Below are positions 6,660-34,021 of a stretch of DNA of 34,021 bases, one piece after another; positions within the stretch are counted from its first letter, which is position 1, and each line of letters begins with the position of its first letter. A model generated the notes under the pieces. It saw nothing but the letters and a program-made list of their open reading frames with translations, made no database searches and was not told where the DNA came from. The translations under genes were made by a program, and so were the position numbers. The stretch comes from a virus, in IMG/VR virus record IMGVR_UViG_3300035206_000294, positions 1 through 34,021 of that record; one strand, 5' to 3'.

Positions 6660-8114
6660 ATGGCTACAGCAAAATTAATCATTCGCGATGAGGTTAATAT
6701 TAAGTTGGATCAAATAGATCCAATGACTCGTCGTAAAATGTCTGCCGCTCTTAAATTTATGTTACCATATGCCTACCATATGCCTGCGTATAAGTTAGGA
6801 CGATGGGATGGTATGATTAGATTTTGCGATGTAGGTGGCAGAACTTATTTAAATTTGTTGGATACATTGCTACCAATAATCCAAAATGCAGGCTATGATA
6901 TTGATATTGAGGATCATAGGCAGACTTGGAACCTAAAGTTTGATGAAATAGACGAAAATTATTTAAGTGATATTAACTGGCCAAAAAAACATACGCACGA
7001 AGGGCAACCTATTGTACTGCGTGATTATCAGGTAGAGGCTATTAATAATTTTTTAAATCACTTGCAAAGTTTACAAGAGATTGCAACAGCCGCAGGTAAA
7101 ACAATTATTACCGCTACGTTAAGTAAGTTATGTGAGCAGTATGGTAGGACGATTGTTATAGTACCTAATAAGAGTTTAGTAACGCAAACAGAAGAAGACT
7201 ATCGAAATATAGGATTGGATGTTGGCGTGTTTTATGGTGACCGAAAGGATTATGGACACCAACATACCATTTGTACTTGGCAATCATTGAATGTGCTATT
7301 AAAAAAGAGCAAACGAAAAGAAGCAGACATTGATATAGAACAATTTATAGATGATGTTATTTGTATTATGGTTGATGAGGTGCATCAAGCAAAAGCAGAT
7401 GTGCTAAAAGAATTGCTCACTGGTGTATTTGCTAATGTACCGGTACGATGGGGATTGACAGGAACAATACCAAAAGCAGAATATGAATTTATAAGTCTTA
7501 AAGCAAGTCTCGGTGAAGTTATTAATCGTATAAGTGCACACTCGTTGCAAGAGCAAGGTGTGTTAAGTAATTGTGAAGTTAAAGTTTTGCAATTAAAAGA
7601 TGATGTAGAGTATCCAAATTACCCGAGCGAGTTAAAGTATTTGTCAACAGATGCTAATAGAATAGATTATTTGGCAAGTGTAATACAGGATATAGCAAGC
7701 ACAGGCAATACACTTGTATTAATAGATAGAATTAAAACAGGTGAGATGCTTTTGGAACGAGTTCCGGATGCTATATTTGTAAGAGGTGCTACAAAAAATG
7801 AAGAGCGTAGAGAACATTATGATGAAGTGGCAACAAGTAATGATAGTTTAATTGTAGCAACATATGGTGTAGCATCAGTTGGTATTAATATTCCCCGCAT
7901 TTTTAATCTTGTATTAATTGAGCCAGGTAAAAGTTTTGTAAGGGTAATACAGAGTATTGGACGAGGAATTCGTAAAGCACACGATAAAGACTTTGTTCAA
8001 ATATGGGATATTACTAGTAATTGTAAATATAGTAAACGGCATTTAACAACACGAAAAAAATATTATCGTGAAGCCAAGTATGATTTTCATATTGAGAAAG
8101 TTTCTTATAAATAA
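6660..8114 (+). CDS. uvsW: UvsW-like superfamily 2 DNA helicase
   Basis: UvsW unwinds R-loops and branched recombination intermediates and helps switch replication from origin-dependent to recombination-dependent mode. The 484-aa protein matches T4-like UvsW in size. An N-terminal domain (1-100) carries the conserved MPAYKLGRWDG segment; the helicase core has Q-motif-like LRDYQ (120-124), motif I ATAAGKT (142-148), motif II DEVH (239-242), motif III LTGT (266-269) and motif VI QSIGRGIRK (about 430). ATG is 6 nt after the -10 element, so translation is probably leaderless. Confidence 0.93.
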   Translation: MATAKLIIRDEVNIKLDQIDPMTRRKMSAALKFMLPYAYHMPAYKLGRWDGMIRFCDVGGRTYLNLLDTLLPIIQNAGYDIDIEDHRQTWNLKFDEIDENYLSDINWPKKHTHEGQPIVLRDYQVEAINNFLNHLQSLQEIATAAGKTIITATLSKLCEQYGRTIVIVPNKSLVTQTEEDYRNIGLDVGVFYGDRKDYGHQHTICTWQSLNVLLKKSKRKEADIDIEQFIDDVICIMVDEVHQAKADVLKELLTGVFANVPVRWGLTGTIPKAEYEFISLKASLGEVINRISAHSLQEQGVLSNCEVKVLQLKDDVEYPNYPSELKYLSTDANRIDYLASVIQDIASTGNTLVLIDRIKTGEMLLERVPDAIFVRGATKNEERREHYDEVATSNDSLIVATYGVASVGINIPRIFNLVLIEPGKSFVRVIQSIGRGIRKAHDKDFVQIWDITSNCKYSKRHLTTRKKYYREAKYDFHIEKVSYK

Positions 8115-10797: not shown

Positions 10798-11586
10798 ATG
10801 GCTACAAGTAATCTCTATCTTTATAAACCAATATATGAGTTAACGATACTTGATAATGGCCAAAGAATGGAAGGGCCTATGTATAATAATACAGTTAAAA
10901 TTCATAAAGGAATAGATGATAAAATTACATTTAATGTATATGATGAAAATCGGCGACTTGCATCTATTAGTCATTTGACATTGGCGGTTAATATTATTGA
11001 TGCTAATACTGGTGCATTAGTTTTAACAAAAACACCAGTTGTAAGAGAAGGGGTAACAGGTACATTGGATGTTATCTTTAGTTGGGGTGATACTGCTAAT
11101 CTTGATGCTGGGTTATACGAGTTTAGTATAACAACAACTAGTGTAGATGGTGAGACGGGTACATTGTATACAGATTTGTCACAAAAAGCTATCGGTACAA
11201 TTGAAATCCTTGATAATATTTTGCCAAGTCCTTCGACTACATTAAGTGTGTCGTCATTTACAGTAAATGGTGGACGATACGAAAGCGATCCTGTAAGTGC
11301 TTCACCTGGTAGAAATTATCAAACTTCATTACATACTTGTGCAGTTTATGCTACAACATATACTGGAAAGTTTTATGTCGAAGGCAGTCATGATTTAACT
11401 TCGCCAACAAATTGGTTTGTTATTGATTTACATCCTACAAATAGTCTTTTGGATTGGAATGTATATACAGCAAAATCAGGTATAGATCCGTTTAATTTTA
11501 ATATTACAACAAATTGGTTTAGATTTGTTCATATTCCTGATGGTGCTAATGTTGGTACACTTGACAAAGTTCTAATTAGAAGTTAA
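10798..11586 (+). CDS. Probable virion structural protein, beta-rich
   Basis: 262 aa, Thr/Ser/Asn-rich, no Cys cluster, no membrane segment. The N-terminal half reads like an immunoglobulin-like or baseplate/neck beta domain (DDKITFNVYDENRRLASISH...; LDAGLYEFSITTTSVDGETG), and the C-terminal half like a second beta-sandwich (GKFYVEGSHDLTSPTNWFVI...). Late promoter box upstream fits a virion role. Exact part (neck, tail or fibre accessory) cannot be assigned. Its last codons contain the -35 element of the primase promoter. Confidence 0.65.
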   Translation: MATSNLYLYKPIYELTILDNGQRMEGPMYNNTVKIHKGIDDKITFNVYDENRRLASISHLTLAVNIIDANTGALVLTKTPVVREGVTGTLDVIFSWGDTANLDAGLYEFSITTTSVDGETGTLYTDLSQKAIGTIEILDNILPSPSTTLSVSSFTVNGGRYESDPVSASPGRNYQTSLHTCAVYATTYTGKFYVEGSHDLTSPTNWFVIDLHPTNSLLDWNVYTAKSGIDPFNFNITTNWFRFVHIPDGANVGTLDKVLIRS

Positions 11587-11589
11587 AAT
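11561..11589 (+). promoter_or_regulatory. Sigma70-type promoter inside the preceding gene, predicted leaderless
   Basis: TTGACA 11561-11566, 17 bp, TAAAAT 11584-11589, then 6 nt to the GTG at 11596. It would allow the primase-helicase operon to be made independently of the upstream late gene. Confidence 0.75.
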
Positions 11590-11595
11590 ATATTA

Positions 11596-12585
11596 GTGCT
11601 TATTGATAAGTTAAAATCTTTAATTCTATTCCGTCTTCCTGGCAGGAAAGCAAGCCCTGGTGGTTGGATGTCTTTAAATTGTCCAATGTGTATTAGTATG
11701 GGCGAAGCAAGACCAGATAAACGCAAACGAGGCGGTTTTAATTTTACAACAACAAATGTAATTTCGTATCATTGTTTTAATTGTGGTTATACGACAGGCT
11801 GGCATGCAGGAAGTGTATTAGGATATAAGTTTATTAATTTGTTATCTGGAATTAATATCGAAGATAGTGTAATTAATAAATTAAAAATAGAAAGTTTAAA
11901 GGAAAAAGATCAAGATATAATTGTTGAACCTGCTAAAGAAATAAATTTAGATTGGCCAAGTGTTAACTTGCCAGATAAGTCTATTCCTATATCAGATGAA
12001 GTAGATAAAAAAGTTTTAGCATATTTACAATCTCGCGGTAAAGGCATTTATGAGAATTGGGATTTTTATTGGTCACCAGATACATATATGGATTTCAATA
12101 GGCGCATTATTATACCTTGCTATTTTAAAAATAAAATAGTAGGTTGGGTATCACGGCATATTAAACCAAATAAAGATACAGCACCAAAGTATTTTGTTAA
12201 AATTCAACAAGATTATTTGTTTAATATAGATCAACTATATACAAAAGAAAGAAAATATGTTATATTAGTTGAAGGACCATTTGATGCAATAGGTATTGAT
12301 GGTGTTGGTTTGTTAGGATCAGAAGTAACAGAAAAACAAGCAGAGTTTTTAAATAGTTTTGGTAAAAAAGTTGTATTAGTTCCTGACAGAGACAAAGCAG
12401 GAAAAAAATTAATAACAAGTGCAATTAAATATGGTTGGGCAGTTAGTTTTCCTGATTGGGAAAAAAATGTTAAGGATGTTGCTGATGCAGTTAAAAAATA
12501 TGGAAGATTGTTTACATTGAGAAGTATTATGGATGGAATTGAGGAAAACTCAATAAAAATAAATGTTTTAAAGAGGCAAATATAA
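11596..12585 (+). CDS. 61: gp61-like DNA primase
   Basis: Makes RNA primers for lagging-strand synthesis together with the gp41 helicase. 329 aa. An N-terminal zinc ribbon has C29-x2-C32 and C60-x2-C63 (CPMC, CFNC). The TOPRIM-type catalytic core has VEGPFDA (225-231, catalytic Glu226) and PDRDKAG (D264, D266). GTG start chosen because it keeps the full zinc domain and lies exactly 6 nt after a -10 box; no Shine-Dalgarno is visible, implying leaderless translation. It overlaps the next gene by one base (ATAATG). Confidence 0.9.
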   Translation: MLIDKLKSLILFRLPGRKASPGGWMSLNCPMCISMGEARPDKRKRGGFNFTTTNVISYHCFNCGYTTGWHAGSVLGYKFINLLSGINIEDSVINKLKIESLKEKDQDIIVEPAKEINLDWPSVNLPDKSIPISDEVDKKVLAYLQSRGKGIYENWDFYWSPDTYMDFNRRIIIPCYFKNKIVGWVSRHIKPNKDTAPKYFVKIQQDYLFNIDQLYTKERKYVILVEGPFDAIGIDGVGLLGSEVTEKQAEFLNSFGKKVVLVPDRDKAGKKLITSAIKYGWAVSFPDWEKNVKDVADAVKKYGRLFTLRSIMDGIEENSIKINVLKRQI

Positions 12586-12965
12586 TGGGACATATAGGAG
12601 ATTTATTTAAAAAAGTTGATGATTTGCAAAAGCAAATAGATGTTATAAAAGAACAGAACGATAAGTTTCAAGATATAATAGATCAAGCAGGCGGAGTGCT
12701 TGATGATGATTTAGGAACAGGTAGTATTGATACTACAACGGGCGATGCTAAAAAAGATGATGTATCTGGAAATACACCAGCATCAAGTCCATCACCGGGG
12801 TGTGGAATGAAATTAAATTATAAAGAACAAACAGTATTAAAGTCAATAACAACGCAATTGCGTACTAAACGGATAATGACTATTAAGTTATTAAATTATG
12901 TAAATAGGATGTTAAAAACTGATCCTCATTTTGTTCACCAGGTGAACAACGAGAAAACATCATAA
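12585..12965 (+). CDS. Unknown protein between primase and helicase
   Basis: 126 aa in three parts: an N-terminal coiled-coil (about 6-34, KKVDDLQKQIDVIKEQNDKF), a low-complexity acidic/Thr/Ser/Pro linker (about 37-70), and a C-terminal basic helical domain (about 75-120, NYKEQTVLKSITTQLRTKR). Not recognised. Its stop overlaps the helicase start, so it is translationally coupled to both replication genes and could be a primosome linker or loader; this is inference from context only. Confidence 0.72.
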   Translation: MGHIGDLFKKVDDLQKQIDVIKEQNDKFQDIIDQAGGVLDDDLGTGSIDTTTGDAKKDDVSGNTPASSPSPGCGMKLNYKEQTVLKSITTQLRTKRIMTIKLLNYVNRMLKTDPHFVHQVNNEKTS

Positions 12966-14347
12966 TGCCAAAAGAGTTTACAGAAGATCTACAAAAACTG
13001 TTTTTGGGTTTTTTAGTAAGTGATAAAGATTTGTATGTACGTATACAAAGTTTAGTTGTACCAACATATTTTAATAATAAGTTTCGGCCAGCGGTTGCGT
13101 TAATAAATGAACACTCGGAAAAGTATAATAGTTTACCAACTATTGATCAAATTAAAGCAAAGACTGGTATAGAAGTTGAACTAGATAGTGAAGTAACGAT
13201 TCGTCATAAAGAATGGTTTCTGGATGAATTTCAAGACTTTGCAAAATTTAAAGCATTAGAACAGGCAATTTTAGCAAGTGCTGATGATATTGAAAAGGGT
13301 GAATATTATTCAGTTGAGAAACGAGTCAAAGAAGCAAGTGATGTGGGTTTAACAAAAAGTTTAGGTACAGATTATTTTGAAGATCCTGTAAAACGTTTAA
13401 AGTCATTAAAAGATAATAACGGGCAAGTAAGTACAGGTTGGACAGCAATTGATAAAAAATTGTTTGGTGGTTTTAATAAAGGTGAATTATCAATTTTTGC
13501 AGGTGGTAGTGGTACAGGTAAGAGTTTGTTTTTACAAAATCTTGCATTAAATTGGGTATCGTTAGGTTTAAATGTAATATATTTTACTTTTGAATTAAGT
13601 GAAGAATTAGTTGCAATGCGAATAGATAGCATGGCAACAGGAATGTCCAGTAGAAGTTTATTTAAAAATTTAGAAGATGTAGAATTAAAAGTTAAATTAC
13701 TTTCTAAACAAGCAGGTGCAATGCAAATAGCATATTTGCCAAGTGGTGTCAATGCTGGACAAATTAAATCATATCTTAAGGAATATGAGATACAATCGGG
13801 TAAACAGCCACAGGCAATTTTAATTGATTATTTAGACTTAATGATGCCAAATGATAGGCGTGTAAGTCCTAGTGATTTGTTTGTTAAAGACAAATATGTT
13901 GCAGAAGAATTGCGTAATTTAGCAGTTGAGTTAGATACATTATTAGTAACTGCGTCACAGTTAAATAGGACAGCAGTTGAAGAAATAGAATTTGATCATA
14001 GTCATATTGCAGGTGGATTAAGTAAAGTGCAGACAGCAGATAATGTTATGGGTATATTTACAAGTGCACCGATGCGAGAGCGAGGTAGGTATCAAATTCA
14101 ATTTATGAAAACTCGTAGTAGTAGTGGGGTTGGCCAACGGGTTGATTTGCAATTTGATATAGATAGTTTAAGAATTAGTGATTTGCCAGAAGGTGAAGAA
14201 GAGCAACCATCAGAAGCTTTATATAGTAATGTTGTTAGAACAAGTTCAGTAACAGATGATAAAGAAAATGAAAAAGGGCAAACAACTGAAGTTAAAGCAT
14301 CTAATTTAAGAAAGATGATTGCAAATATGAACAAATTGGATCGTTAA
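12965..14347 (+). CDS. 41: gp41-like replicative DNA helicase (DnaB family)
   Basis: Hexameric 5'-3' helicase of the replication fork, partner of the primase. 460 aa: a helical N-terminal domain (1-130), then a RecA-like core with Walker A GGSGTGKS (180-187), H1a-type catalytic Glu in YFTFELSEE (E210), Walker B LIDYLDL (286-292) and the DnaB-type VTASQLNR motif (328-335). The acidic, flexible C-terminus (about 415-460) fits gp41-type partner binding. Third gene of the overlapping primase-linker-helicase operon. Confidence 0.93.
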   Translation: MPKEFTEDLQKLFLGFLVSDKDLYVRIQSLVVPTYFNNKFRPAVALINEHSEKYNSLPTIDQIKAKTGIEVELDSEVTIRHKEWFLDEFQDFAKFKALEQAILASADDIEKGEYYSVEKRVKEASDVGLTKSLGTDYFEDPVKRLKSLKDNNGQVSTGWTAIDKKLFGGFNKGELSIFAGGSGTGKSLFLQNLALNWVSLGLNVIYFTFELSEELVAMRIDSMATGMSSRSLFKNLEDVELKVKLLSKQAGAMQIAYLPSGVNAGQIKSYLKEYEIQSGKQPQAILIDYLDLMMPNDRRVSPSDLFVKDKYVAEELRNLAVELDTLLVTASQLNRTAVEEIEFDHSHIAGGLSKVQTADNVMGIFTSAPMRERGRYQIQFMKTRSSSGVGQRVDLQFDIDSLRISDLPEGEEEQPSEALYSNVVRTSSVTDDKENEKGQTTEVKASNLRKMIANMNKLDR

Positions 14348-14666: not shown

Positions 14667-15969
14667 ATTCCGCGGCCCTCGAATTTCCCGTAAGCGACAA
14701 GTAGGTTTCCATAAACTTGCTGATGTTCGTAGAGCAATTCAGGATGATGTTGAAATAGACGAAGGTGCAAACACTCATTTAACTCATTTTGAAGATAAAG
14801 TTTTTCATGGTGGGTATGAAGGTGCCGAAGAAGCCTTAAATATTGGAATAGCTCTTTTGGACATGTTAGAAGGGCATACAAAGTCACCAATAAATATAAC
14901 AACAAAATGGGATGGCTCCCCTGCTATTTTTGCAGGTAGAGATGCTACAACTGGCAAGTTTATAATGGGAGACAAAGGTATTTTTGCAAAAACTGGTGCT
15001 CGCATTATGGATACGCCAGATGCAATTGATGCTAATAAGCAAGGTGACGAAAAAAGTAATTTGCGTATTAAATTAAAAGAAGTTTTAACAGAATTACCTA
15101 AAGTTTTTCCACCTAATTTTAAAGGATTATTACAAGGTGATTTACTTTTTTATTCAGGGAATAAAGAAAAAGCGTTATTGGATGACGAAGAGGCTATATT
15201 TTTTACGCCAAATACGTTAACGTATGCAGTTCCACTGAATAGCGATATAGGCAAAAAGATAGATAATGCTAAAATAGGCATTGTGTTTCATACTAGTTAT
15301 CCAGACTGGCCTGCAAGCAATGATGCTAAATTTGGTGCTGGTATTGAAGATTTAAATCATGTAGATAGTGTTTGGCTCAGTGATGCTAATATAAAAGATG
15401 TTAGTGGACAAGTAACATTGACAATAGAAGAAACAACTCAAATACGTAAAGCATTAAATGAAGCAAAGAAAGATTTAATAGCAACCGGTAAGAAGTTTTT
15501 TAATTTTTTAGATACAGATGCATTTGGTAAAGAATTTGGTAAGCAATTAGAAGCCACAATTAATGCAAGTGTCCGGCAAGGCGCTATTCCTGATAATGCC
15601 GAGCAATTTGCTTCAAGTTTTATTAATCGATTCGAAGAAGGAATAGAAAAATTAATTGCAAACTATAAAAAAGAAGATGCAATTAATAGAAAAAGTCAAG
15701 AATTAGAGGCAGGTTTAAAGTTTTTTGATGCAAATAAAGACAGTTTTTTGCATATATATGAATTGTGGTTTAGGTTGTATAGCATTAAAGAGATATTTGC
15801 TAAGAAATTGCACGGCATTAGAGCGATGGAAACGTTTGAAGAGATGCCCGATGGAACATTTGAAGTTCGCGACCCGGAAGGATTTGTAGCAGTTGATCAC
15901 GTAGGTAATGCTATAAAAATTGTTGACAGATTAGGGTTTAGTGCCGCAAACTTCCAAAAGGAATATTAA
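14623..15969 (+). CDS. Ligase-like nucleotidyltransferase (KxDG family), marine T4-like phage type
   Basis: 448 aa. Motif I TKWDGSPAIF has candidate nucleotide-accepting K95 (KxDG). Then KGLLQGDLLFYSG (167-179) resembles motif III, with Asp173 where ligases have Glu; FFTPNTLTYAVPL and GIVFHTSY resemble IIIa; EGFVA (419-423) resembles motif IV and IKIVDR (431-436) motif V. Motif order fits the covalent nucleotidyltransferase superfamily (RNA/DNA ligases, capping enzymes). Between IIIa and IV lies a helical insert of about 150 aa. The substrate (RNA end, DNA nick or protein) is unknown. Start overlaps the 91-aa gene by 44 nt; no better start is visible. Late-region placement is odd for a repair enzyme. 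Confidence 0.65.
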   Translation: MQINELILNIKQKRKFRGPRISRKRQVGFHKLADVRRAIQDDVEIDEGANTHLTHFEDKVFHGGYEGAEEALNIGIALLDMLEGHTKSPINITTKWDGSPAIFAGRDATTGKFIMGDKGIFAKTGARIMDTPDAIDANKQGDEKSNLRIKLKEVLTELPKVFPPNFKGLLQGDLLFYSGNKEKALLDDEEAIFFTPNTLTYAVPLNSDIGKKIDNAKIGIVFHTSYPDWPASNDAKFGAGIEDLNHVDSVWLSDANIKDVSGQVTLTIEETTQIRKALNEAKKDLIATGKKFFNFLDTDAFGKEFGKQLEATINASVRQGAIPDNAEQFASSFINRFEEGIEKLIANYKKEDAINRKSQELEAGLKFFDANKDSFLHIYELWFRLYSIKEIFAKKLHGIRAMETFEEMPDGTFEVRDPEGFVAVDHVGNAIKIVDRLGFSAANFQKEY

Positions 15970-15975
15970 TAAATA
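15968..15975 (+). promoter_or_regulatory. T4-type late promoter box, predicted leaderless
   Basis: AATAAATA, then 5 nt (GTATT) to the ATG at 15981. It overlaps the stop codon of the gene before. The predicted transcript begins on the A of ATG. Confidence 0.7.
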
Positions 15976-15980
15976 GTATT

Positions 15981-16787
15981 ATGGAATTAGAATTTATAAA
16001 TGATCTGTGTGAAAGTAGATTAATTAGGAATAAAAAATATATAAGTCGTTATACGGCTAAGGATGCCGCTGACTTGGTATTTTTATATGCATGTATGTTG
16101 AATATTCTTAAGAATGAGTTTAAATATGCGCCAGTAGCATCTCAATATGCTAAAAAGACATTAATGTATAATAATTTTAATATTTTTCGTCTAAATGGTA
16201 CCGACATGTATATATTATTAACAGGATTGATTGGTACTGATGATACAAATGAATTGTTTGCAGACAAAGAAGCAAGCACGTTATTTTTAGCAGATTTGCG
16301 TGTAAATGAACCGCAATTAAAGGAATGGTTGCGTTTAAGTGCCAAAGGTATAGCACGAAAGGATATAGATTCGCAATTTTTATATAGATTAGAAAAACAG
16401 TTAAAAGTTGACAATTCTCAATATAAGTCTGTTCGTCGTCTTGCATCTGATTGGGTAAATTTAAAACATGGGCAAAAGACATTAGTTATAACACGAATTA
16501 TACAAGCATTAAGAGCAAGAGCAGTCCGGTCTGAACTTATGCCAGTTATGATGAGATTGGCAAAAGAAAAGAAATATGTATCTGTAAAACCTGTAAAAGA
16601 TATGGAAAAAGCACAACCAGCAAATACAAAAGGGGGTATGTCTTCCCGTTCTAAAATTGCTATGGGTATAGGTCTTACTGGTGCAGCTACGTATGGTGCG
16701 TATCGTCTTGCTAAACATCTTACTGGTAAAACAGGCACAAAACGAAGTTGGCGCGATAATGTTGGACGCGGCCATCAGTCAAAATAA
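15981..16787 (+). CDS. Conserved marine T4-like phage protein, probably virion-associated
   Basis: 268 aa. Helical domain (1-200) with conserved-looking NGTDMYILLTGLIG (about 74-87) and DNSQYKSVRRLASDW (about 138-152). After a linker comes a Gly/Ala-rich hydrophobic stretch MGIGLTGAATYGAYRLAKHL (about 232-251), possibly a membrane-active segment, and a basic tail. I recall homologues in cyanophage-like genomes with no function given. The AAGGA sequence upstream is about 20 nt away, too far to serve; translation is probably leaderless. Confidence 0.72.
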   Translation: MELEFINDLCESRLIRNKKYISRYTAKDAADLVFLYACMLNILKNEFKYAPVASQYAKKTLMYNNFNIFRLNGTDMYILLTGLIGTDDTNELFADKEASTLFLADLRVNEPQLKEWLRLSAKGIARKDIDSQFLYRLEKQLKVDNSQYKSVRRLASDWVNLKHGQKTLVITRIIQALRARAVRSELMPVMMRLAKEKKYVSVKPVKDMEKAQPANTKGGMSSRSKIAMGIGLTGAATYGAYRLAKHLTGKTGTKRSWRDNVGRGHQSK

Positions 16788-17175: not shown

Positions 17176-17200
17176 AACCCCCTCGCAGAGGGGGTTTTTT
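17176..17200 (+). terminator. Intrinsic terminator
   Basis: AACCCCCTC (17176-17184), GCA loop, GAGGGGGTT (17188-17196), running into T6 (17195-17200). Confidence 0.92.
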
Positions 17201-17206
17201 ATTCTC

Positions 17207-17214
17207 ACTAAATA
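17207..17214 (+). promoter_or_regulatory. T4-type late promoter box, predicted leaderless
   Basis: ACTAAATA, then TTTTT (5 nt) to the ATG at 17220. Confidence 0.65.
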
Positions 17215-17219
17215 TTTTT

Positions 17220-17606
17220 ATGCATGAGTTTAACCCAGATACTGCAACTTGGTTTACTGTTTATACTTTAATTGATATTACACATTCTTCAAGACGCAAA
17301 GATGTATCTCAGAAAAATTGGGATATGATTATTAACTGTTTAAGTATGGTTTGTCAACCTTTGGGTTCTCATATACCTATAAAAAAGAAACGTAAGTTAA
17401 CAAAGTTTAAATTTGGTTCTGAATATAAAAATAAAATAAGAAATGTTTGGACTTGGTCATTTGCAGTTGAGCAACAGGGTATAATTACAATTGAAAAATT
17501 AGTTGAAGATTTAAATGGAATACCCGTTTCAGATAGGTTAGAATATGTTGAAACAAAAGACTCAAAAATCAAAAACACTTATTTTTCTATAAAGGAAATG
17601 GAATAA
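17220..17606 (+). CDS. Conserved marine T4-like phage protein, unknown function
   Basis: 128 aa. Features NPDTATWFTVYTLIDITHSS (about 5-24), QKNWDMIINCLSMVCQPLGS and KFKFGSEYKNKIRNVWTWSF (about 63-82). The pattern matches a family I recall from cyanophage-like genomes with no assigned function. No catalytic motif. Monocistronic late unit between a terminator and the next late box, without a Shine-Dalgarno. Confidence 0.72.
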   Translation: MHEFNPDTATWFTVYTLIDITHSSRRKDVSQKNWDMIINCLSMVCQPLGSHIPIKKKRKLTKFKFGSEYKNKIRNVWTWSFAVEQQGIITIEKLVEDLNGIPVSDRLEYVETKDSKIKNTYFSIKEME

Positions 17607-17609
17607 ATA
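17602..17609 (+). promoter_or_regulatory. T4-type late promoter box, predicted leaderless
   Basis: AATAAATA overlapping the preceding stop codon, then CTATT (5 nt) to the ATG at 17615. Confidence 0.7.
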
Positions 17610-17614
17610 CTATT

Positions 17615-17881
17615 ATGGCAAGATCAGACGTAAAAAAATTATATGTACATGCAGGCGACACGTATGATGTTGAGACGGAAAGTCTCGAAGCACACGTGGC
17701 TATTTGTAGTGAGCGATATTTTGCTATTCATCAACATTTACAAGAATCTGAAAGTAGATTATCACAAAAAATTGAAACAAACTCAGCTCAAATTTCTCGA
17801 ATAGAGAAAATAGTAATTTGGAGCATGGGTGCAATTTTTGTAACCCTCCTTGGTAGTATCCTCGCAGTAATTTTAAGATAA
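17615..17881 (+). CDS. Tail-anchored coiled-coil membrane protein, XhlA-like
   Basis: 88 aa: a soluble start with KLYVHAGDTYDVETESLEAH (about 8-27), a coiled-coil (about 40-66, QESESRLSQKIETNSAQISR), then one C-terminal membrane helix (about 67-87, IVIWSMGAIFVTLLGSILAV). This layout resembles the XhlA haemolysin/holin-associated family; in marine T4-like phages similar proteins lack a proven role. Lysis function is possible. Leaderless late expression predicted. Confidence 0.6.
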   Translation: MARSDVKKLYVHAGDTYDVETESLEAHVAICSERYFAIHQHLQESESRLSQKIETNSAQISRIEKIVIWSMGAIFVTLLGSILAVILR

Positions 17882-17898: not shown

Positions 17899-17906
17899 TA
17901 TAAATA
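17899..17906 (+). promoter_or_regulatory. T4-type late promoter (perfect TATAAATA), predicted leaderless
   Basis: TATAAATA, then TAAGT (5 nt) to the ATG at 17912; identical to the T4 late consensus. Confidence 0.8.
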
Positions 17907-17911
17907 TAAGT

Positions 17912-18250
17912 ATGAATCTGGGTGAATTAATAGGCGAAGATCCTGTACTTGAAGCACGGCGTGTTTGGGCACGTCGTGGTAATAAAGTTGTGCAAAAGTT
18001 TCGTTGCACATCTGGGTGGCGCAAAGGAAGATTGGTATCAACTCCGGCTAGTTGTTCAAAACCATTGGATATTAAAAAGAGATTTAGTATTAAAAAAACA
18101 AGAGCGAGGCTTGGTCCTCGTATTGTTCGAAAAACGAAGCGGGCAAAAAGATTTAATCCAATAACAAAGAGAATAACACAATTAAATAAACCTCTTCGTC
18201 CAAAAACAAAATCTGGTGGTTCTACTAAATGGTGGCAACGGAGTAATTAA
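17912..18250 (+). CDS. Very basic small protein, likely nucleic-acid-binding virion protein
   Basis: 112 aa, rich in Lys and Arg through nearly the whole length. Segments RVWARRGNKVVQKFRCTSGW (about 17-36), GRLVSTPASCSKPLDIKKR and ARLGPRIVRKTKRAKRFNPI (about 75-94) resemble a conserved family in marine T4-like phages, unassigned. Two Cys (in FRCTSGW and PASCSKP) might bind metal. Charge and late expression suggest it binds packaged DNA or condenses it; that is inference. N-terminus MNLGELIG is similar to the neighbours' starts. Confidence 0.72.
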   Translation: MNLGELIGEDPVLEARRVWARRGNKVVQKFRCTSGWRKGRLVSTPASCSKPLDIKKRFSIKKTRARLGPRIVRKTKRAKRFNPITKRITQLNKPLRPKTKSGGSTKWWQRSN

Positions 18251-20782: not shown

Positions 20783-20989
20783 ATGAGACTTGCTGAGTTA
20801 TTAGGTAATTTACATACCTATATTAGTAATGAAGAACATAAAGTTCTTGAAATGGTCAAGGACTCGAGTATATCTTATTGTGATAATTTTAATGAAAGAG
20901 ATTTTGAATTAGCCACTGGTCTTGTTAAGCGTGGCGTGTTAACCCGGTCTAAAGACTCTAAGGGATTGTTTTTTAATATAGTTAAATAA
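20783..20989 (+). CDS. Small protein, winged-helix-like, unknown function
   Basis: 68 aa, start MRLAELLGNLHTYIS (capsid-targeting-like). The remainder, with SYCDNFNERDFELATGLVKR then GVLTRSKDSKGLFFNI, has the helix-helix-strand-strand order of a small winged-helix domain, which is a visual guess. Its terminal GTT-AAA-TAA forms the late box of the next gene. Confidence 0.6.
   Translation: MRLAELLGNLHTYISNEEHKVLEMVKDSSISYCDNFNERDFELATGLVKRGVLTRSKDSKGLFFNIVK
20981..20988 (+). promoter_or_regulatory. T4-type late promoter box, predicted leaderless
   Basis: GTTAAATA embedded in the last codons and stop of the preceding gene, then ATTTT (5 nt) to the ATG at 20994. Confidence 0.6.
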
Positions 20990-20993
20990 TTTT

Positions 20994-21449
20994 ATGAGAC
21001 AACATGTGTTAAAGAAGCTAAATGCTTTGGTAAAAAGTATTGCTGATAAAAGTTCAGTGGAAAATAAACCCATTGTTCATAAAGGTGGTATAATTGCCAA
21101 CGAATGGGAAGTCAAAAAAATAAAAAAGAATGATTATTGTATTATTTGTAAAAAAACTAATACTGTTTTAATTAAGGATATTGAATTATATGAAGTGGCT
21201 TATAATATTGCATATTTAATTAATAAAGGATATACTCTTTCGTCAAGTAATATTACAGAAATTTTAAAACATCATGGTACTTTTTCTACAAAGTTTTATG
21301 AAGCAATTTTTTGTAAACAAAAACGAAATGATTATGCTAAACAATCTGATTGGTTAAAATATGATGTAATGGATGCAAAATATAAACAAGCTCGGATGAT
21401 AGCTATAGAGGCAAAAAAGAAACTTCGTAAATCATATCAGAATAGATAA
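20994..21449 (+). CDS. Basic late protein of unknown function
   Basis: 151 aa, basic and Lys-rich. N-terminal beta part includes YCIICKK (two Cys) and IANEWEVKKIKKND; the rest is helical with a basic end (IEAKKKLRKSYQ). I recall similar proteins in marine T4-like phages, unassigned. No Shine-Dalgarno; the start lies 5 nt after a TAAATA box. DNA or virion interior binding is possible. Confidence 0.65.
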   Translation: MRQHVLKKLNALVKSIADKSSVENKPIVHKGGIIANEWEVKKIKKNDYCIICKKTNTVLIKDIELYEVAYNIAYLINKGYTLSSSNITEILKHHGTFSTKFYEAIFCKQKRNDYAKQSDWLKYDVMDAKYKQARMIAIEAKKKLRKSYQNR

Positions 21450-23165: not shown

Positions 23166-23195
23166 TTGACAACATTGATTGTCTTGTAGTATAAT
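23166..23195 (+). promoter_or_regulatory. Sigma70-type promoter, predicted leaderless
   Basis: TTGACA 23166-23171, 18 bp, TATAAT 23190-23195, then 6 nt to the ATG at 23202. Confidence 0.75.
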
Positions 23196-23201
23196 ATATT
23201 A

Positions 23202-23882
23202 ATGTCTTTAATAAACAAGATATACGAATATCCCATTCTAAAAAGAACCGAAGTCAACGGCCAGAGATTATATGATACTGGAAGTGCAAAAGTACCTTCC
23301 GTAACTACTATTCTTGGTCGTATGAAAGACATGACTGGAATTAATAAATGGCGAGATAGGGTAGGGCATGAAGAGGCACAACGTATTTTAACAGAAGCTG
23401 CAAATTTAGGTACAGCAACACATAAGCATTTAGAAAATCATGTTTTGGGTATAGAACGCCCACAGGGTACAAATTTAATTAGGCAAATAGCATCAAAGTT
23501 AGCAGATATAGTTATTGATGAAGGCCTTGTTAATATAAATGAAGTTTGGGGTTTAGAAGCATCATTATATTCTCCTGAGCTTTATGCAGGTACTACAGAT
23601 TGTGTAGGACTTTGGAAAGATAAACCTGCAATTATAGATTTTAAAACATCTCGCTCAGTAAAGAAACGTGAATGGATAGATGACTATTTTTTACAAGGTG
23701 TTGCATATGCAATGGCACACAATGAATTGTTTGATACAACAATTGAAACAGTTGTTATTATGATGGTTACGCACGATGGGAAGTATTTAGAATTTCCTAT
23801 TACAGACGATGAATTTAATAAGTATACAGAGAAATGGCTTGATAAACTAAAAGAGTATTACCAGGTTTATGATAAATACTAA
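23202..23882 (+). CDS. PD-(D/E)XK nuclease (RecB/Cas4-like exonuclease)
   Basis: 226 aa, the size of single-domain phage exonucleases. Motifs: GTATHKHLE (70-78, metal-binding His74), WGLEASLYS (E119), AGTTDCVGLW (Asp133), AIIDFKTSR (catalytic Asp146 and Lys148) and the Q-x3-Y of LQGVAYA (Q165, Y169). Such enzymes digest DNA ends in recombination or host DNA breakdown. It has a consensus promoter although it lies between late genes, so early or middle expression is expected. Predicted leaderless start. Confidence 0.87.
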   Translation: MSLINKIYEYPILKRTEVNGQRLYDTGSAKVPSVTTILGRMKDMTGINKWRDRVGHEEAQRILTEAANLGTATHKHLENHVLGIERPQGTNLIRQIASKLADIVIDEGLVNINEVWGLEASLYSPELYAGTTDCVGLWKDKPAIIDFKTSRSVKKREWIDDYFLQGVAYAMAHNELFDTTIETVVIMMVTHDGKYLEFPITDDEFNKYTEKWLDKLKEYYQVYDKY

Positions 23883-25728: not shown

Positions 25729-25757
25729 TTGACAAAGTAGTATTTTTTTGTTATTAT
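25729..25757 (+). promoter_or_regulatory. Sigma70-type promoter, predicted leaderless
   Basis: TTGACA 25729-25734, 17 bp, TATTAT 25752-25757, then 6 nt to the ATG at 25764. It begins 2 nt after the preceding stop codon. Confidence 0.75.
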
Positions 25758-25763
25758 AGTTCT

Positions 25764-26171
25764 ATGTCTAAAGAAATTGATTTAAACAAATACAAACATT
25801 TTGTAGATAGTGTTACCTCTAAAGAATCTAAAGATTCATCGGCACTGGTTACACGTTGGAGTGAACTTAATAAGTTTGTTCAGACACCTCGTTTATTAAC
25901 TGCAAGTATGGGATTAAGTTCTGAAACTGGCGAGTTTAATGAGATTGTAAAAAAATGTATATTTCAAGGTAAGCCAGCAGATGCTGACAATATACATCAT
26001 ATGAAACGAGAGTTAGGTGATATAATATGGTATTGGGCACAGGCATGTTTGGCCTTGCGTTTAGACCCAAATGATGTTATAATAGAAAATGTAGAAAAAT
26101 TAAAAAGTAGGTATCCTGGCGGTGAATTTGATACTTCTAGATCTGAAAATAGAGAAGAAGGTGATGTGTAG
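25764..26171 (+). CDS. mazG: MazG-like nucleotide pyrophosphohydrolase
   Basis: 135 aa, single MazG-type helical domain. Metal-binding motifs: E54-x2-E57 (SSETGEFNE) and E83-x2-D86 (RELGD), followed by the usual helix ending LKSRYPGGEF. Family members hydrolyse (d)NTPs; marine phage MazG proteins are common auxiliary genes proposed to affect host nucleotide or alarmone pools, though the exact substrate is debated. First gene of a unit with the SET protein, whose GTG start directly follows/overlaps the stop. Confidence 0.87.
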   Translation: MSKEIDLNKYKHFVDSVTSKESKDSSALVTRWSELNKFVQTPRLLTASMGLSSETGEFNEIVKKCIFQGKPADADNIHHMKRELGDIIWYWAQACLALRLDPNDVIIENVEKLKSRYPGGEFDTSRSENREEGDV

Positions 26172-29211: not shown

Positions 29212-29244
29212 TTGACATAATTGTATTTTCGTTTATTATAAATA
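29212..29244 (+). promoter_or_regulatory. Overlapping sigma70-type promoter and late box
   Basis: TTGACA 29212-29217, 16 bp, TATTAT 29234-29239; a perfect late box TATAAATA at 29237-29244 overlaps the -10. Predicted start about 29246-29250, leader about 25 nt with AAGGGG before the ATG at 29275. The pair would permit both early and late expression. Confidence 0.65.
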
Positions 29245-29905: not shown

Positions 29906-29913
29906 GATAAATA
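29906..29913 (+). promoter_or_regulatory. T4-type late promoter box
   Basis: GATAAATA, then TTACT (5 nt) to the ATG of a 9-codon leader ORF at 29919. Confidence 0.65.
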
Positions 29914-29918
29914 TTACT

Positions 29919-29948
29919 ATGGAAGACGGTTTCCATAGGAGATTATAA
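29919..29948 (+). CDS. Possible 9-aa leader peptide, leaderless start
   Basis: ATG at the predicted late start, product MEDGFHRRL. Its TAA shares an A with the next ATG (TAATG at 29946-29950), and the AGGAG site of the next gene lies inside it, so translation of the two would be coupled. Confidence 0.4.
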   Translation: MEDGFHRRL

Positions 29949-30079
29949 TGAGCGATAAGCAAAAGAAAATTGCCTGGGTAGCTGCCACAGTAATAGTAGT
30001 AGGTTTCTTAGGCGATCATTTTGGTTTTTGGGAAATGACTGCATGGATCAACCCAGCCGGCGGCCCTGACAGCCGATAA
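29948..30079 (+). CDS. Small membrane protein
   Basis: 43 aa: a basic start (MSDKQKK), a hydrophobic helix (about 8-22, IAWVAATVIVVGFLG), then a short Trp/Gly/Pro-rich tail (HFGFWEMTAWINPAGGPDSR). ATAGGAG lies 6-7 nt before the ATG. Unknown family. Monocistronic, between a late box and a palindrome plus terminator. Confidence 0.65.
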   Translation: MSDKQKKIAWVAATVIVVGFLGDHFGFWEMTAWINPAGGPDSR

Positions 30080-30134: not shown

Positions 30135-30142
30135 AGTAAATA
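30135..30142 (+). promoter_or_regulatory. T4-type late promoter box, nearly leaderless
   Basis: AGTAAATA, then 6 nt to the ATG at 30149; the predicted leader is about 0-1 nt. Confidence 0.6.
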
Positions 30143-30148
30143 TTAAAA

Positions 30149-30478
30149 ATGACATGTGAACTTTGCAAATTACATACGATTTTAAAGGTATACGATGATT
30201 CAGATCCACGATGGATTATAATGGATTGTATGTCATGTTTAATTCCAATGATAGTGTGGTACGGACATACAATGGCTATTCCACCAAGAGACAGAGTAGA
30301 AATGGAAATAGCATTAAGGGAAGTTGGCGATCGCGAATTTGGTAAAGGTAATTATTTTATTGATGATGAACAAAGAACTATTCCGGATCATTTACATTGG
30401 CATGCTCGACCAAATGATTGGGTACCAAATTTGGAATGGATTGAAAAAATTCGTAAAGAACGTTCACCGTATATGTAA
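30149..30478 (+). CDS. HIT-like (histidine triad) small protein with CxxC pairs
   Basis: 109 aa. C3-x2-C6 (MTCELC) and C27-x2-C30 (DCMSC) frame a beta segment; H40 (YGHTM) is at the position of the HIT 'H-x-P' strand; HLHWHARP (81-88) gives H81-x-H83-x-H85, the histidine triad. HIT enzymes cleave nucleotide-phosphate bonds, often nucleotidylated substrates. Proteins with an N-terminal CELC and a terminal HxHxHxRP form a small HIT-related group I recall from microbes and phages; activity unproven. It leads a cluster with the radical SAM gene 5 nt downstream. Confidence 0.65.
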   Translation: MTCELCKLHTILKVYDDSDPRWIIMDCMSCLIPMIVWYGHTMAIPPRDRVEMEIALREVGDREFGKGNYFIDDEQRTIPDHLHWHARPNDWVPNLEWIEKIRKERSPYM

Positions 30479-30483
30479 GTATT

Positions 30484-31683
30484 ATGAGTAAAGTTTATAA
30501 CAGGAAGGATTTTTTGAAACATAAAAATTTTTGTTTATATCCATTTACACAATTATATTGTTTGTCAACACCTGATGGCTTTCGTGTTAAGCCTTGTTGT
30601 GAAACACTAGAAAAAGATGAAATATATGCTAAAACAATAAGCAGTATTAAGAATCATGATTTTTTAAAAGATCTTAGAAAACACTTTATAGATGACAAAC
30701 CACTTCCTGAAATGTGTTGTCGTTGTATAGAAGATGAAACAGCATCAGATGGTAAAAGTAGTCGCAGGCTTGATAGATTATCATCTAATATGGATTTTAC
30801 ATTTGAAGTAAACGAAGATGGTGAATTATTAAGTGAAGTGCAAGATCTTGATTTACGACCAAGTAATACTTGTAATCTAAAATGTATAATGTGCAATCCT
30901 TGGGATTCATCAAAGTGGGGAGAGGATATTGATATATACGGCGATGTGTTTTTAAAATTATCAAAACAGGATGATTTAGAAGACCTTAAAAAAGAGATTA
31001 ATAAAGCAAAACAATATACTGATTGGAATGAGTTGTTAGGCCTTGTTGGTTATTTAAAAAGAATTTTTATTGCAGGCGGCGAGCCTTTCTATATGAAAAA
31101 TGCATTGGCATTTTTACAAACATTAGTAGATTTAGAAGTAGCATCAGATATTATTTTAGAAATAACAACTAATGCTGTCAGTATTAATAATGCATTAATT
31201 TCTTTGTTAGAACAGTTTAAGGAAGTTAATATTACTATTAGTATCGATGGTGTTGAAGATGTAAATTATATTATTAGATACCCAACCGAATGGAGTACAT
31301 TTTGTTTAAATATTAATTTGTTATATAATAAATTTCCTAATCATATACATTTTAATAATACAGTCTCAGCATTGAACTTATTAGACACACTTAATATAGT
31401 AGATTTTACAAATAAATATATAGGAACCGGTATAATATTAGGAAGATGTGTAGAACCTGAATTATTAGATGTTAATAGTTTGAAACCAGAGGTTATTAAT
31501 AAGTTTAGAGGATTATTAAAATATGGTTCAATTAGTAACAAGCAACATAATTGGTATACTCTTTTAATAGATGATTACAAATACAATGAAGAAAATAATA
31601 ATAAAATGAAAACGTTTTTAGCAAAGTTAGATAAAAAGAGAAATACAAATTCAAAAGATATTTTACCATGGTGTTGGGTATGA
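30484..31683 (+). CDS. Radical SAM protein with N-terminal SPASM/twitch-like Cys cluster (complete)
   Basis: 399 aa. N-terminal Cys region FCLYPF...C38C39...C78C79xC81 precedes the core. Core motif NTCNLKCIMCN has C130-x3-C134-x2-C137; AGGEPF (197-202) is the SAM-binding motif; ITTNA and ISIDGV (about 250) are barrel strands. The C-terminal 100 residues are helical and end with PWCWV. Paralogous in layout to the genes at 1-948 and 33290. Starts 5 nt after the HIT-like gene and ends in ATGA overlap with the next. Likely modifies a peptide, protein or nucleotide; no obvious small Cys/repeat precursor peptide was found next to it. Confidence 0.88.
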   Translation: MSKVYNRKDFLKHKNFCLYPFTQLYCLSTPDGFRVKPCCETLEKDEIYAKTISSIKNHDFLKDLRKHFIDDKPLPEMCCRCIEDETASDGKSSRRLDRLSSNMDFTFEVNEDGELLSEVQDLDLRPSNTCNLKCIMCNPWDSSKWGEDIDIYGDVFLKLSKQDDLEDLKKEINKAKQYTDWNELLGLVGYLKRIFIAGGEPFYMKNALAFLQTLVDLEVASDIILEITTNAVSINNALISLLEQFKEVNITISIDGVEDVNYIIRYPTEWSTFCLNINLLYNKFPNHIHFNNTVSALNLLDTLNIVDFTNKYIGTGIILGRCVEPELLDVNSLKPEVINKFRGLLKYGSISNKQHNWYTLLIDDYKYNEENNNKMKTFLAKLDKKRNTNSKDILPWCWV

Positions 31684-31991
31684 AGGGTAAGCATTTTATT
31701 ATATTTGTACATGTATATAGGCCCGGTGAAGGTGCAAGAACCGAATCAAAGGATTTTGGGTTAGATGGTAAATGGAATATGCAGGAAGAAATTTATTTTC
31801 TTGATAAAGTATCAGATAAGTTTTTAACAAGGGCTACTGCAATATTAGATTATGATAATAATAAAATTATCAAAACCCGTATAGAAGGGTTAACACCTGA
31901 GAAAATGCTTTCTCATGTGCAAGAAAAATATCCAAAGCAATTTTTACAGTTTATGAAAGTGATTAGCCAAGATAAAAAAGACGGCGGTTGA
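31680..31991 (+). CDS. Small conserved phage protein of unknown function
   Basis: 103 aa from the ATG at 31680 that overlaps the preceding stop (ATGA); a start at 31668 in the same frame would add only MVLG. Segments KHFIIFVHVYRPGEGARTES (about 4-23) and DYDNNKIIKTRIEGLTPEKM are beta then helix; no catalytic motif. Its last codons overlap the -35 box of the tuf promoter. Translation coupled to the radical SAM enzyme, so it could be its partner or substrate; inference. Confidence 0.7.
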   Translation: MKGKHFIIFVHVYRPGEGARTESKDFGLDGKWNMQEEIYFLDKVSDKFLTRATAILDYDNNKIIKTRIEGLTPEKMLSHVQEKYPKQFLQFMKVISQDKKDGG

Positions 31992-32028
31992 CAATTACTT
32001 TAATATATATTATAATATTTGGTAAATA
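31988..32028 (+). promoter_or_regulatory. Consensus sigma70 promoter plus late box for tuf
   Basis: TTGACA 31988-31993, 17 bp, TATAAT 32011-32016, a perfect consensus; then late box GGTAAATA 32021-32028. Predicted starts about 32023 and 32034; leaders about 52 and 41 nt. EF-Tu can be made through the whole infection. Confidence 0.8.
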
Positions 32029-32038
32029 ATATCATTGT

Positions 32039-32054
32039 GTCTTCAAGTGGAGAC
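32039..32054 (+). promoter_or_regulatory. Hairpin in the tuf leader
   Basis: GTCTTC (32039-32044), AAGT loop, GGAGAC (32049-32054), 6 bp with one T-G pair. It hides a GGAG sequence about 20 nt before the ATG and lies 5 nt after the late-promoter start. Confidence 0.45.
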
Positions 32055-32074
32055 TTTAAATATAGAGATATAAA

Positions 32075-33265
32075 ATGGCAAAAGATAAATTTGAAAGAAC
32101 AAAACCGCATGTTAACGTAGGTACAATCGGTCATGTTGACCATGGTAAAACTACACTAACAGCGGCAATTACAAAAGTGTTGGGCGAAAAATTTGGTGGT
32201 GATGCAAAAGCATTTGACGAAATTGATAACGCTCCTGAAGAACGTGAACGGGGTATTACTATTGCAACTGCTCATGTAGAGTATGAAACAGCTGGCCGCC
32301 ACTATGCTCACGTTGACTGTCCAGGACACGCAGACTATGTAAAGAATATGATTACTGGTGCCGCCCAGATGGATGGTGCTATTTTGGTTGTGTCTGCCGC
32401 AGACGGCCCAATGCCGCAAACAAGAGAACACATCTTACTTGCACGGCAAGTTGGTGTTCCGTATATGATTGTTTTTATGAACAAAGCAGACATGGTTGAT
32501 GATGATGAATTAATAGAACTTGTCGAAATGGAAATTAGAGAACTTCTTGACAGCTATGAGTTCCCAGGTGATGACACACCAATTATTATTGGTTCAGCAT
32601 TACAAGCATTAGAAGGCGAAGAAACAGAGCACGGTACAGAATCAATTTATAGACTTGCAGAAGCATTAGATTCTTACATTCCAGAACCAGAACGGGCAGT
32701 TGATGGCGACTTCTTGTTGCCAATTGAGGATGTGTTCTCAATTGCTGGACGAGGAACAGTTGTTACTGGACGAGTAGAACGTGGTATAGTTAAAGTTGGC
32801 GAAGATGTAGAAATTGTCGGTGTTAAGGATACTGTAAAAACAGTTTGTACTGGAGTTGAGATGTTTCGCAAACTACTTGATGAAGGTAGAGCAGGTGATA
32901 ACATTGGTGCTCTTTTACGTGGTACAAAACGCGAAGATGTAGAGCGCGGCCAAGTATTAGCAAAACCCGGTTCGATTAAACCACATACAAAGTTTGAAGC
33001 AGAAGTTTATGTGTTAGCCAAAGAGGAAGGTGGTAGACATACACCGTTTTTCCAAGGATACCGCCCGCAGTTTTATTTCCGTACAACGGATATCACTGGA
33101 CAATGTGAACTTGCTGAAGGTGTTGATATGGTAATGCCTGGTGATAATGTAAATCTTACAGCAACATTGATTAACCCAATTGCTATGGAAGAAGGTTTGC
33201 GTTTCGCTATTAGGGAAGGTGGCAGAACCGTTGGTGCTGGTGTAGTTGCAAAAATTATTGAGTAA
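32075..33265 (+). CDS. tuf: Translation elongation factor EF-Tu
   Basis: 396 aa, full length (E. coli 394). EF-Tu carries aminoacyl-tRNA to the ribosome with GTP. All G motifs are present: GHVDHGKT (19-26), switch I RGITI (59-63), DCPGH with catalytic His85 (81-85), NKAD (136-139), GSAL (173-176). Domain 2 ([20 protein letters not shown]) and domain 3 ([20 protein letters not shown]) are intact, so it should be functional. The Gly60-Ile61 bond cut by the Lit protease in E. coli EF-Tu is unchanged, as is the C-terminal [10 protein letters not shown] Thr targeted by Doc-type kinases. The 178-195 loop is 3 residues longer than E. coli. Codons are GC-richer than neighbours. Flanked by phage genes, not by str-operon genes. 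Confidence 0.96.
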
Positions 33266-33276
33266 TGTTTTTAACG

Positions 33277-33284
33277 GGTAAATA
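33277..33284 (+). promoter_or_regulatory. T4-type late promoter box, predicted leaderless
   Basis: GGTAAATA, then CTAGT (5 nt) to the ATG at 33290. Confidence 0.65.
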
Positions 33285-33289
33285 CTAGT

Positions 33290-34021
33290 ATGGTAGCTCG
33301 CCCGTCGGATAATAATAAAACAACAAATCGTTCACCAATGGCCGTTTCGCCTACATTCTGTGCGTTTCCTTTTGCACATTTAGTTATACATAATAATGGA
33401 ACATATGGTCCATGTTGTGGTGCATCGGAATTTTTTTATATAAATGAAAATAATAAAGTTGGATCAGCTAACATGTTTGAACCGATGTTTCTTGACGGGG
33501 ATATTAAACCATATTGGTTAGGTATTGAGGAAGCATTTAATAGCGAGCCGATGGAACATATTCGTCAAGAGTTGTTAAAAGGTAATAAACCGTCTGCATG
33601 TGAATCATGCTGGAAGCAAGAAAAATATAAAGAAATTCGTAGTAAAAGACAAGCAAATAACGAACTTTATTTTGCTTTGTTCCCAGCGTTTGAAAATATA
33701 TTTGATTATAATGCAACAGAATTATCTACAAATCCATATGTTAGATCGTTAGATTTAAAATTTTCTAACAAATGTAATTTACATTGTTTAATGTGTCATG
33801 CAGGCAATAGTGATATGTGGCTACCATTAGATAAAAAGATAAATCAATATTTAATTAAGCATAATCTAAAAAGGGGCGTTATTTCACCTGATATCCATGA
33901 CATGGCTTTGGATATAGAGTTATATCATAGTACAGATCATATTATTGTAGATGTAGATGATTTTCATAAAAACATAAGTGATTTTCCTCAAGAAAGATAT
34001 GAGGAAATCAAATCGTTAATA
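33290..34021 (+). CDS. Radical SAM protein with N-terminal SPASM/twitch-like Cys cluster (partial, runs off right edge)
   Basis: Open frame of 244 codons from ATG at 33290 to the window end. N-terminal Cys region: FCAFPF (C24), YGPCCG (C42, C43), ACESC (C104, C107) followed by EIRSKR. Core motif FSNKCNLHCLMCH has C162-x3-C166-x2-C169. Same architecture as the genes at 1-948 and 30484, with sequence clearly diverged. The ATG is 5 nt after a late box, with no Shine-Dalgarno. The remaining barrel, including the GGEP motif, lies outside the window. Confidence 0.87.
   Translation, partial: MVARPSDNNKTTNRSPMAVSPTFCAFPFAHLVIHNNGTYGPCCGASEFFYINENNKVGSANMFEPMFLDGDIKPYWLGIEEAFNSEPMEHIRQELLKGNKPSACESCWKQEKYKEIRSKRQANNELYFALFPAFENIFDYNATELSTNPYVRSLDLKFSNKCNLHCLMCHAGNSDMWLPLDKKINQYLIKHNLKRGVISPDIHDMALDIELYHSTDHIIVDVDDFHKNISDFPQERYEEIKSLI

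Follow-up and report, generated by a model that had tools for sequence, protein, structure and literature searches.

Late-type and sigma-70 promoters at fixed distances from start codons in a T4-superfamily phage fragment: evidence for probable leaderless mRNAs

In a 34-kb virus fragment (the whole stretch of 34,021 nt that was analysed, hereafter the window) and in several of its relatives, we find that promoters of two classes lie at fixed distances from start codons. The analyses below show that the spacings are fixed, exceed chance expectation and are conserved in relatives, that Shine-Dalgarno (SD) sequences are absent at these starts, and that virion functions and gp55 homologs accompany them in relatives. 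The constant distance between promoter and start codon makes it probable that many messages have the AUG at their very 5' end and lack a ribosome-binding leader, and leaderless mRNAs made from both gp55-type and sigma-70 promoters are very likely the best explanation of the data. The start of the RNA at the A or G of the start codon, the initiation of ribosomes on a 5'-terminal AUG and the purpose of the arrangement are all inferred; no 5'-end data for these phages were found in the literature accessible to us.

Gene content and relatives of the window

The window encodes an SSB, DNA helicases, a piece of a DnaE-like polymerase, a primase and a DnaB-like helicase, and had no megablast match among named phages. 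Its closest named relatives are the jumbo phages PA5oct and kin (57% for the polymerase piece and 52% for DnaB), Atu_ph07 and Phosso, followed by Vibrio phage 2.275.O, RaK2, 121Q, XacN1 and SCTP-2, while contigs G001 and G002 display a DNA identity to the window of ~71-78% across most of the region. As part of the overall best explanation, the window very likely belongs to a large T4-superfamily phage from the PA5oct / Atu_ph07 / RaK2 neighbourhood. The gene order virion structural - primase - DnaB-like helicase (10798-14347) is the same in PA5oct, and the first two genes of this order have fused promoters there.

TAAATA boxes at a fixed distance from ATG in the window

A preliminary description, made from the sequence alone, had reported seven ATGs preceded by TAAATA and exactly 5 nt, as well as one, at 30149, with 6 nt, and had held that identical spacing at so many starts was very unlikely to arise by chance. 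Both claims held, and all eight sites, which lie on the + strand, were as described (Table 1). When ATGs downstream of the 39 copies of TAAATA on the + strand were counted at gaps of 0-30 nt between box and start codon, gap 5 scored 7 and every other gap scored 3 or fewer, and no TAAATA on the reverse strand of the window had an ATG at gap 5. Dinucleotide shuffles of the whole window gave a mean of 1.1 gap-5 sites and a maximum of 6, with none of 2000 reaching the observed 7. A raw enrichment of hexamers before all ATGs, whose signal came mainly from conserved coding sequence near the helicase, was dropped in favour of gene starts called with a simple first-ATG caller. At these called starts a gap-5 box was present in 5 of 47, compared to 0.12 expected, and 0 of 500 per-gene shuffles reached the count.

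Chance is the simplest rival explanation, TAAATA being common in AT-rich DNA. In its favour are the 39 copies on the + strand, and the site at 20994, and possibly that at 29919, may indeed be chance. Against it stand both sets of shuffles and the recurrence of the peak in other genomes described below; for the sites taken together chance is refuted, and we regard it as all but excluded.

Table 1. Promoters fused to start codons in the window (N5, N6 and the like give the number of nucleotides between elements)
Site	Positions	Strand	Remarks
Late-type box TAAATA (15970-15975), N5, ATG 15981 (268-aa gene)	15970-15983	+	G001 and G002 share the spacing and the protein's N-terminus
Intrinsic terminator (17179-17194) plus T-run, TAAATA (17209-17214), N5, ATG 17220	17179-17222	+	
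TAAATA, N5, ATG 17615 (88-aa gene)	17604-17617	+	N5 in G001
TATAAATA-type box (core 17901-17906), N5, ATG 17912 (112-aa gene)	17901-17914	+	N5 kept in G001 and G002
TAAATA, N5, ATG 20994	20983-20996	+	Weak case; box overlaps stop codon of upstream gene
TAAATA (29908-29913), N5, ATG 29919, then AGGAG, ATG 29948	29908-29950	+	
TAAATA (30137-30142), N6, ATG 30149 (109-aa gene)	30137-30151	+	Right behind terminator-like hairpin
TAAATA, N5, ATG 33290 (SPASM-domain gene)	33279-33292	+	Gene continues beyond window
Sigma-70-like TTGACA-N16-TATTAT-N6-ATG 4648 (71-aa ORF)	4614-4650	+	Behind terminator-like hairpin; overlapping TATAAT is an N3 alternative
Sigma-70-like TTGACT-N17-TAAAAT-N6-ATG 6660 (DNA helicase)	6625-6662	+	Right behind terminator-like hairpin
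Sigma-70 promoter TTGACA-N17-TAAAAT-N6-GTG 11596 (primase)	11561-11598	+	
Sigma-70 promoter TTGACA-N18-TATAAT-N6-ATG 23202 (exonuclease)	23166-23204	+	N6 likewise in G001, G002, L095, L055 and L014
Sigma-70-like TTGACA-N17-TATTAT-N6-ATG 25764 (135-aa gene)	25729-25766	+	

Conservation and reliability of individual late-type sites

At 15981 and 17912 the box and its spacing were retained in both G001 and G002 despite diverged flanks, while at 17220 and 17615 they were retained in G001, together with the terminator in the case of 17220. The G002 ortholog of 17220 has a gap of 8 or 11, and in that of 17615 an extended, AGGAG-bearing leader stands in place of the N5 box, from which we conclude that a gene can switch between fused and leadered forms. 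A terminator ends 19-24 nt upstream of five fused ATGs, including 17220 and 30149, and the box sits in the gap that remains, leaving no room for a leader, or, at 17220 specifically, for an SD leader.

Two of the eight sites in the original list are doubtful. The weakest is 20994, because its box overlaps the stop codon upstream, lies at gap 7 in G001 and is missing from G002. The other, ATG 29919, opens a 9-codon mini-ORF (MEDGFHRRL) whose TAA stop overlaps ATG 29948, the start of a 43-codon ORF with an upstream AGGAG that lies inside the mini-ORF; this unit is therefore probably SD-led. A hairpin in the region 29908-30079 spans the 9-codon ORF, with the late-type box before it, and may mark a leader peptide or reinitiation unit.

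A second rival explanation accepts the promoters as real, but places the true coding start at a later, SD-preceded ATG or GTG, so that the ATG at +1 is incidental. Site 29919 is probably such a case, and the long SD leader of the 17615 ortholog in G002 also speaks in its favour. Against it, the proteins starting at 15981, 17220, 17912 and 23202 align to those of relatives from residue 1 onward, and gap 5 is tied to those ATG and GTG codons that open long ORFs. We consider this rival very unlikely.

Spacing in related loci and control phages

The preliminary description had proposed that a sharp peak at 5 nt in related genomes would support its claim. This held, with peaks at 5 or 5-6 nt in many relatives and in two cultured phages. 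Across 78 related loci TAAATA peaked at gap 5 (50) and gap 6 (23) over a background of ~6, and the control hexamers TTAATA and TAATTA displayed no comparable gap-5 peak in these loci. Such counts are not independent events, because the sequences are related; the 57 gap-5/6 sites in loci L003-80 represent 26 protein clusters. Using first-ATG starts, the gap-5 peak was observed in the window, in contigs G001, G002, G004, G005 and G008, and in the cultured phages HTVC008M (Pelagibacter) and XacN1 (Xanthomonas); for each of them, none of 500 shuffles matched the observed count. P-SSM2 exhibited a weak gap-5 excess of 4 sites, a number reached by 1 of 500 shuffles. SCTP-2 had 7 sites at gap 5, a spike seen without a shuffle comparison. 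The peak was absent from the gene starts of T4, Syn9, KVP40, RaK2, S-PM2, PA5oct and Atu_ph07, and most phages without it showed an ordinary leadered hump at ~20-32 nt.

In the pooled positive genomes (2301 starts), 82 boxes lay at gap 5, 32 at gap 6 and only 1-6 at each of gaps 9-16, followed by a second hump at ~17-33 nt that carries SD sites. SD4 preceded 2-3% of starts at gaps 5-6, compared to 39-53% of those at gaps 15-35 and 30% of genes lacking a box. The claim that the fused starts in the window lack a usable SD held as absence of an SD, but this absence is partly automatic, since the box occupies the SD position. The low SD frequency at gaps 5-6 is likewise in part the result of construction, whereas the valley at 9-16 and the second hump are not.

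The two cultured phages each hold a set of sites. HTVC008M (L172-L179) has 10 gap-5 late-type boxes, at genes that include the DNA end protector, head closure, tail tube and baseplate wedge protein. Both fused classes are found in XacN1 (L124-L143), with 7 + 5 late-type sites at gaps 5-6 and nine sigma-70-type TATAAT at gaps 6-7, besides leadered ones; its terminal repeats double-count one late-type and two sigma-70-type sites.

The TAAATA box resembles a T4-type late promoter

The fused boxes are TATAAATA-like with a TAAATA core, and neither T at -13 nor A at -12 is strictly required; a relaxed -13 is known from other T4-like phages (PMC1524935). No enrichment of a -35 element was detected at the fused TAAATA boxes, where the distribution of -35 mismatches was that of other TAAATA, as expected of T4-type late promoters (structure: PMC2988020). 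The published geometry of T4 late promoters is -13 to -6 (PMC1524935), and the T4 start position, box+6, coincides at gap 5 with the A of ATG. Among leadered boxes the purine preference at box+6 was 0.72, matching the 0.76 of T4-type controls, with 0.50-0.60 at adjacent positions (0.51-0.53 for the leadered boxes). This supports the preliminary inference that T4 geometry would place the transcript start on the A of ATG, in the absence of mapped 5' ends. Start codons at gap 5 comprised 99 ATG, 12 GTG, 2 TTG and 3 CTG, a composition that fits a purine transcription start. Some sites have gap 6 in place of 5, which would mean a 1-nt leader.

The late-type genes with fused boxes in relatives encode the terminase large subunit, tail tube, tape measure, DNA end protector, head closure, baseplate wedge, virion structural proteins and endolysin, and matches to gp55-family sigma factors were found in G004, PA5oct, XacN1, HTVC008M and others. 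The late assignment depends on these two findings in relatives, as gp55 is absent from the 34-kb window; the window's own late-type fused genes had no family match for function. The preliminary term 'late promoters' held only in part: 'late' fits the virion genes and gp55 homologs of relatives, but does not cover the sigma-70 promoters, which have the fused design as well. Members of the virion-structural ortholog family represented at 10798 were fused in 20 of 56 cases and leadered in 29 of 56, a mosaic like that of the 17220 and 17615 orthologs.

A second fused class consists of sigma-70 promoters

Five sigma-70 promoters of the form TTGACA-N16-18-TATAAT-like-N6-ATG/GTG, which share the fused geometry, had been missed by the preliminary description (Table 1). 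In relatives TATAAT peaks at gap 6-7, with a TTGACA-like -35 ~17 nt farther upstream. When a -35 was required, 4 of the 47 first-ATG starts in the window had such a promoter at gap 6, compared to 0.02 expected, and none had one at any other gap below 28; the GTG-started primase falls outside this count, and adding it gives five. In loci L003-80 the count of fused sigma-70 promoters was 70, compared to 0.6 expected.

Of 66 primase orthologs, 41 had a promoter at N6-7 of ATG or GTG, the arrangement being kept at protein identities as low as ~35%, and fused sigma-70 promoters preceded 16 of 85 DnaB and 7 of 18 exonuclease orthologs. The negative-control genes had none (0 of 14 orthologs for SSB and 0 of 30 for orf14623). 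PA5oct carries three orthologous fused sites (TATAAATACGTGTATG, TATAATGTGCGCGTG and TATAATACAGGCTATG), with motifs that start at its positions 144972, 145878 and 158229, despite which it displayed no genome-wide excess. Fusion is not universal, since two more strong sigma-70 matches in the window, at 29212 and 31988, have no start nearby.

The second class bears on a third rival explanation, according to which TAAATA at -11 to -6 is not a promoter but an A/U-rich translation-initiation element, bound by S1 or the ribosome, with transcripts originating farther upstream. In its favour, the box overlaps the place expected of an SD and the genomes are AT-rich. Against it, the TAAATA boxes of SD-led genes make up a distinct hump 17-33 nt before the start, a pattern shared with T4, the TTAATA and TAATTA controls lack a comparable peak, several sites lie directly behind terminators, TTG starts are nearly missing at gap 5 (2), and complete TTGACA/TATAAT promoters form a parallel peak at the geometry expected for sigma-70. 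We judge this rival very unlikely compared with fused promoters.

Proposed explanation and known systems

Under the fused-promoter explanation, two promoter classes are each joined to the start codon, and transcription would start with the initial A or G of that codon. The first would be a gp55-type late box, TAAATA, at -11 to -6 without a -35, and the second a promoter for host sigma-70, TTGACA-N16-18-TATAAT-like, exactly 6 nt from the start codon. Translation of the gene at the head of each unit would use a leaderless mRNA, and that of the other genes ordinary SD sites. RNA reading through from upstream would lack a usable start or SD at these ATGs, and each head gene would therefore be made only when its own promoter fires, which we infer to be the likely purpose. 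A bolder reading, toward which we remain slightly more sceptical than persuaded, is that promoter-start fusion is the principal arrangement for head genes in this group of phages, for both the sigma-70 and gp55 classes, gates translation against read-through RNA, and has repeatedly been gained and lost as one gene moved between leaderless and SD-leadered forms.

The late class resembles T4 late promoters (gp55/gp33/gp45) in its TAAATA core, lack of a -35 and purine at box+6, as well as in the virion genes and gp55-family sigma found in relatives. It differs in that the T4 box lies mostly ~21-29 nt upstream of SD-led starts, never at gap 5 among the T4 gene starts tested, and in that positions -13/-12 are relaxed in the window's phage group. 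In the jumbo phages CBB and GAP32 structural genes are preceded by an ATAAATA late motif, and a gp55-like sigma is present in CBB, where gp33 and gp45 were undetected (PMC5259590). The motif is of the same type and likewise lies upstream of structural genes, but no fixed spacing to start codons or leaderless mRNA is reported in the relevant sections of that paper, and the relative RaK2 lacks the gap-5 peak. Cyanophages have NATAAATA (PMC2984593). The late initiation motif of phiKZ (T-3ATG+1, PMC7598289) also overlaps an ATG-like sequence, but phiKZ uses a multisubunit phage RNAP, starts at the G of the motif and has no TATA-type box at a fixed distance.

Leaderless mRNAs of bacteria and phages have been reviewed (PMC9031893). 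The lambda cI message made from PRM is an example. Such messages reportedly withstand kasugamycin (PMC5230787). Known leaderless messages share the 5'-terminal AUG, the absence of an SD and a promoter -10 located ~6 nt before the start; in the window's group, by contrast, the arrangement recurs over genes and genomes of a lytic T4-type phage and involves two promoter classes, one with a phage sigma. Leaderless mRNA went unmentioned in the searched text of the T4 late review (PMC2988020) and of the T4 post-transcriptional review, and we found no prior report of it in T4-like or jumbo phages in the open-licence literature, the only kind that could be searched. Nor did we find the fused sigma-70 class reported within that literature.

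If this explanation is true, a branch in which both promoter classes are fused to the start codon would provide a natural experiment for studying how lytic phages use leaderless translation, set against T4 late transcription, the textbook system, in which late genes are read from SD-bearing leaders. Fusion makes predictions precise to a single base for phages that can be cultured (XacN1, HTVC008M and the three sites in PA5oct), and the annotation of start sites would improve. Earlier methods failed to find pelagimyophage late promoters (PMC7029224), which fused boxes could explain; those of HTVC008M were possibly missed because they touch the start codon.

Other observations

Phage-encoded bS21 was considered as a correlate of leaderless use and was rejected, as the two showed no correlation: bS21 is present in HTVC008M and contig G003, also in PA5oct, Atu_ph07, Phosso, SCTP-2 and Vibrio phage 2.275.O, and absent in XacN1. 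Toward the end of the window (30484-34021), two radical-SAM/SPASM-type genes (30484 and 33290) lie on either side of a 396-aa gene (32075), the first ~150 residues of which match the translation elongation factor family phrog_6880, an unusual neighbourhood for a phage.
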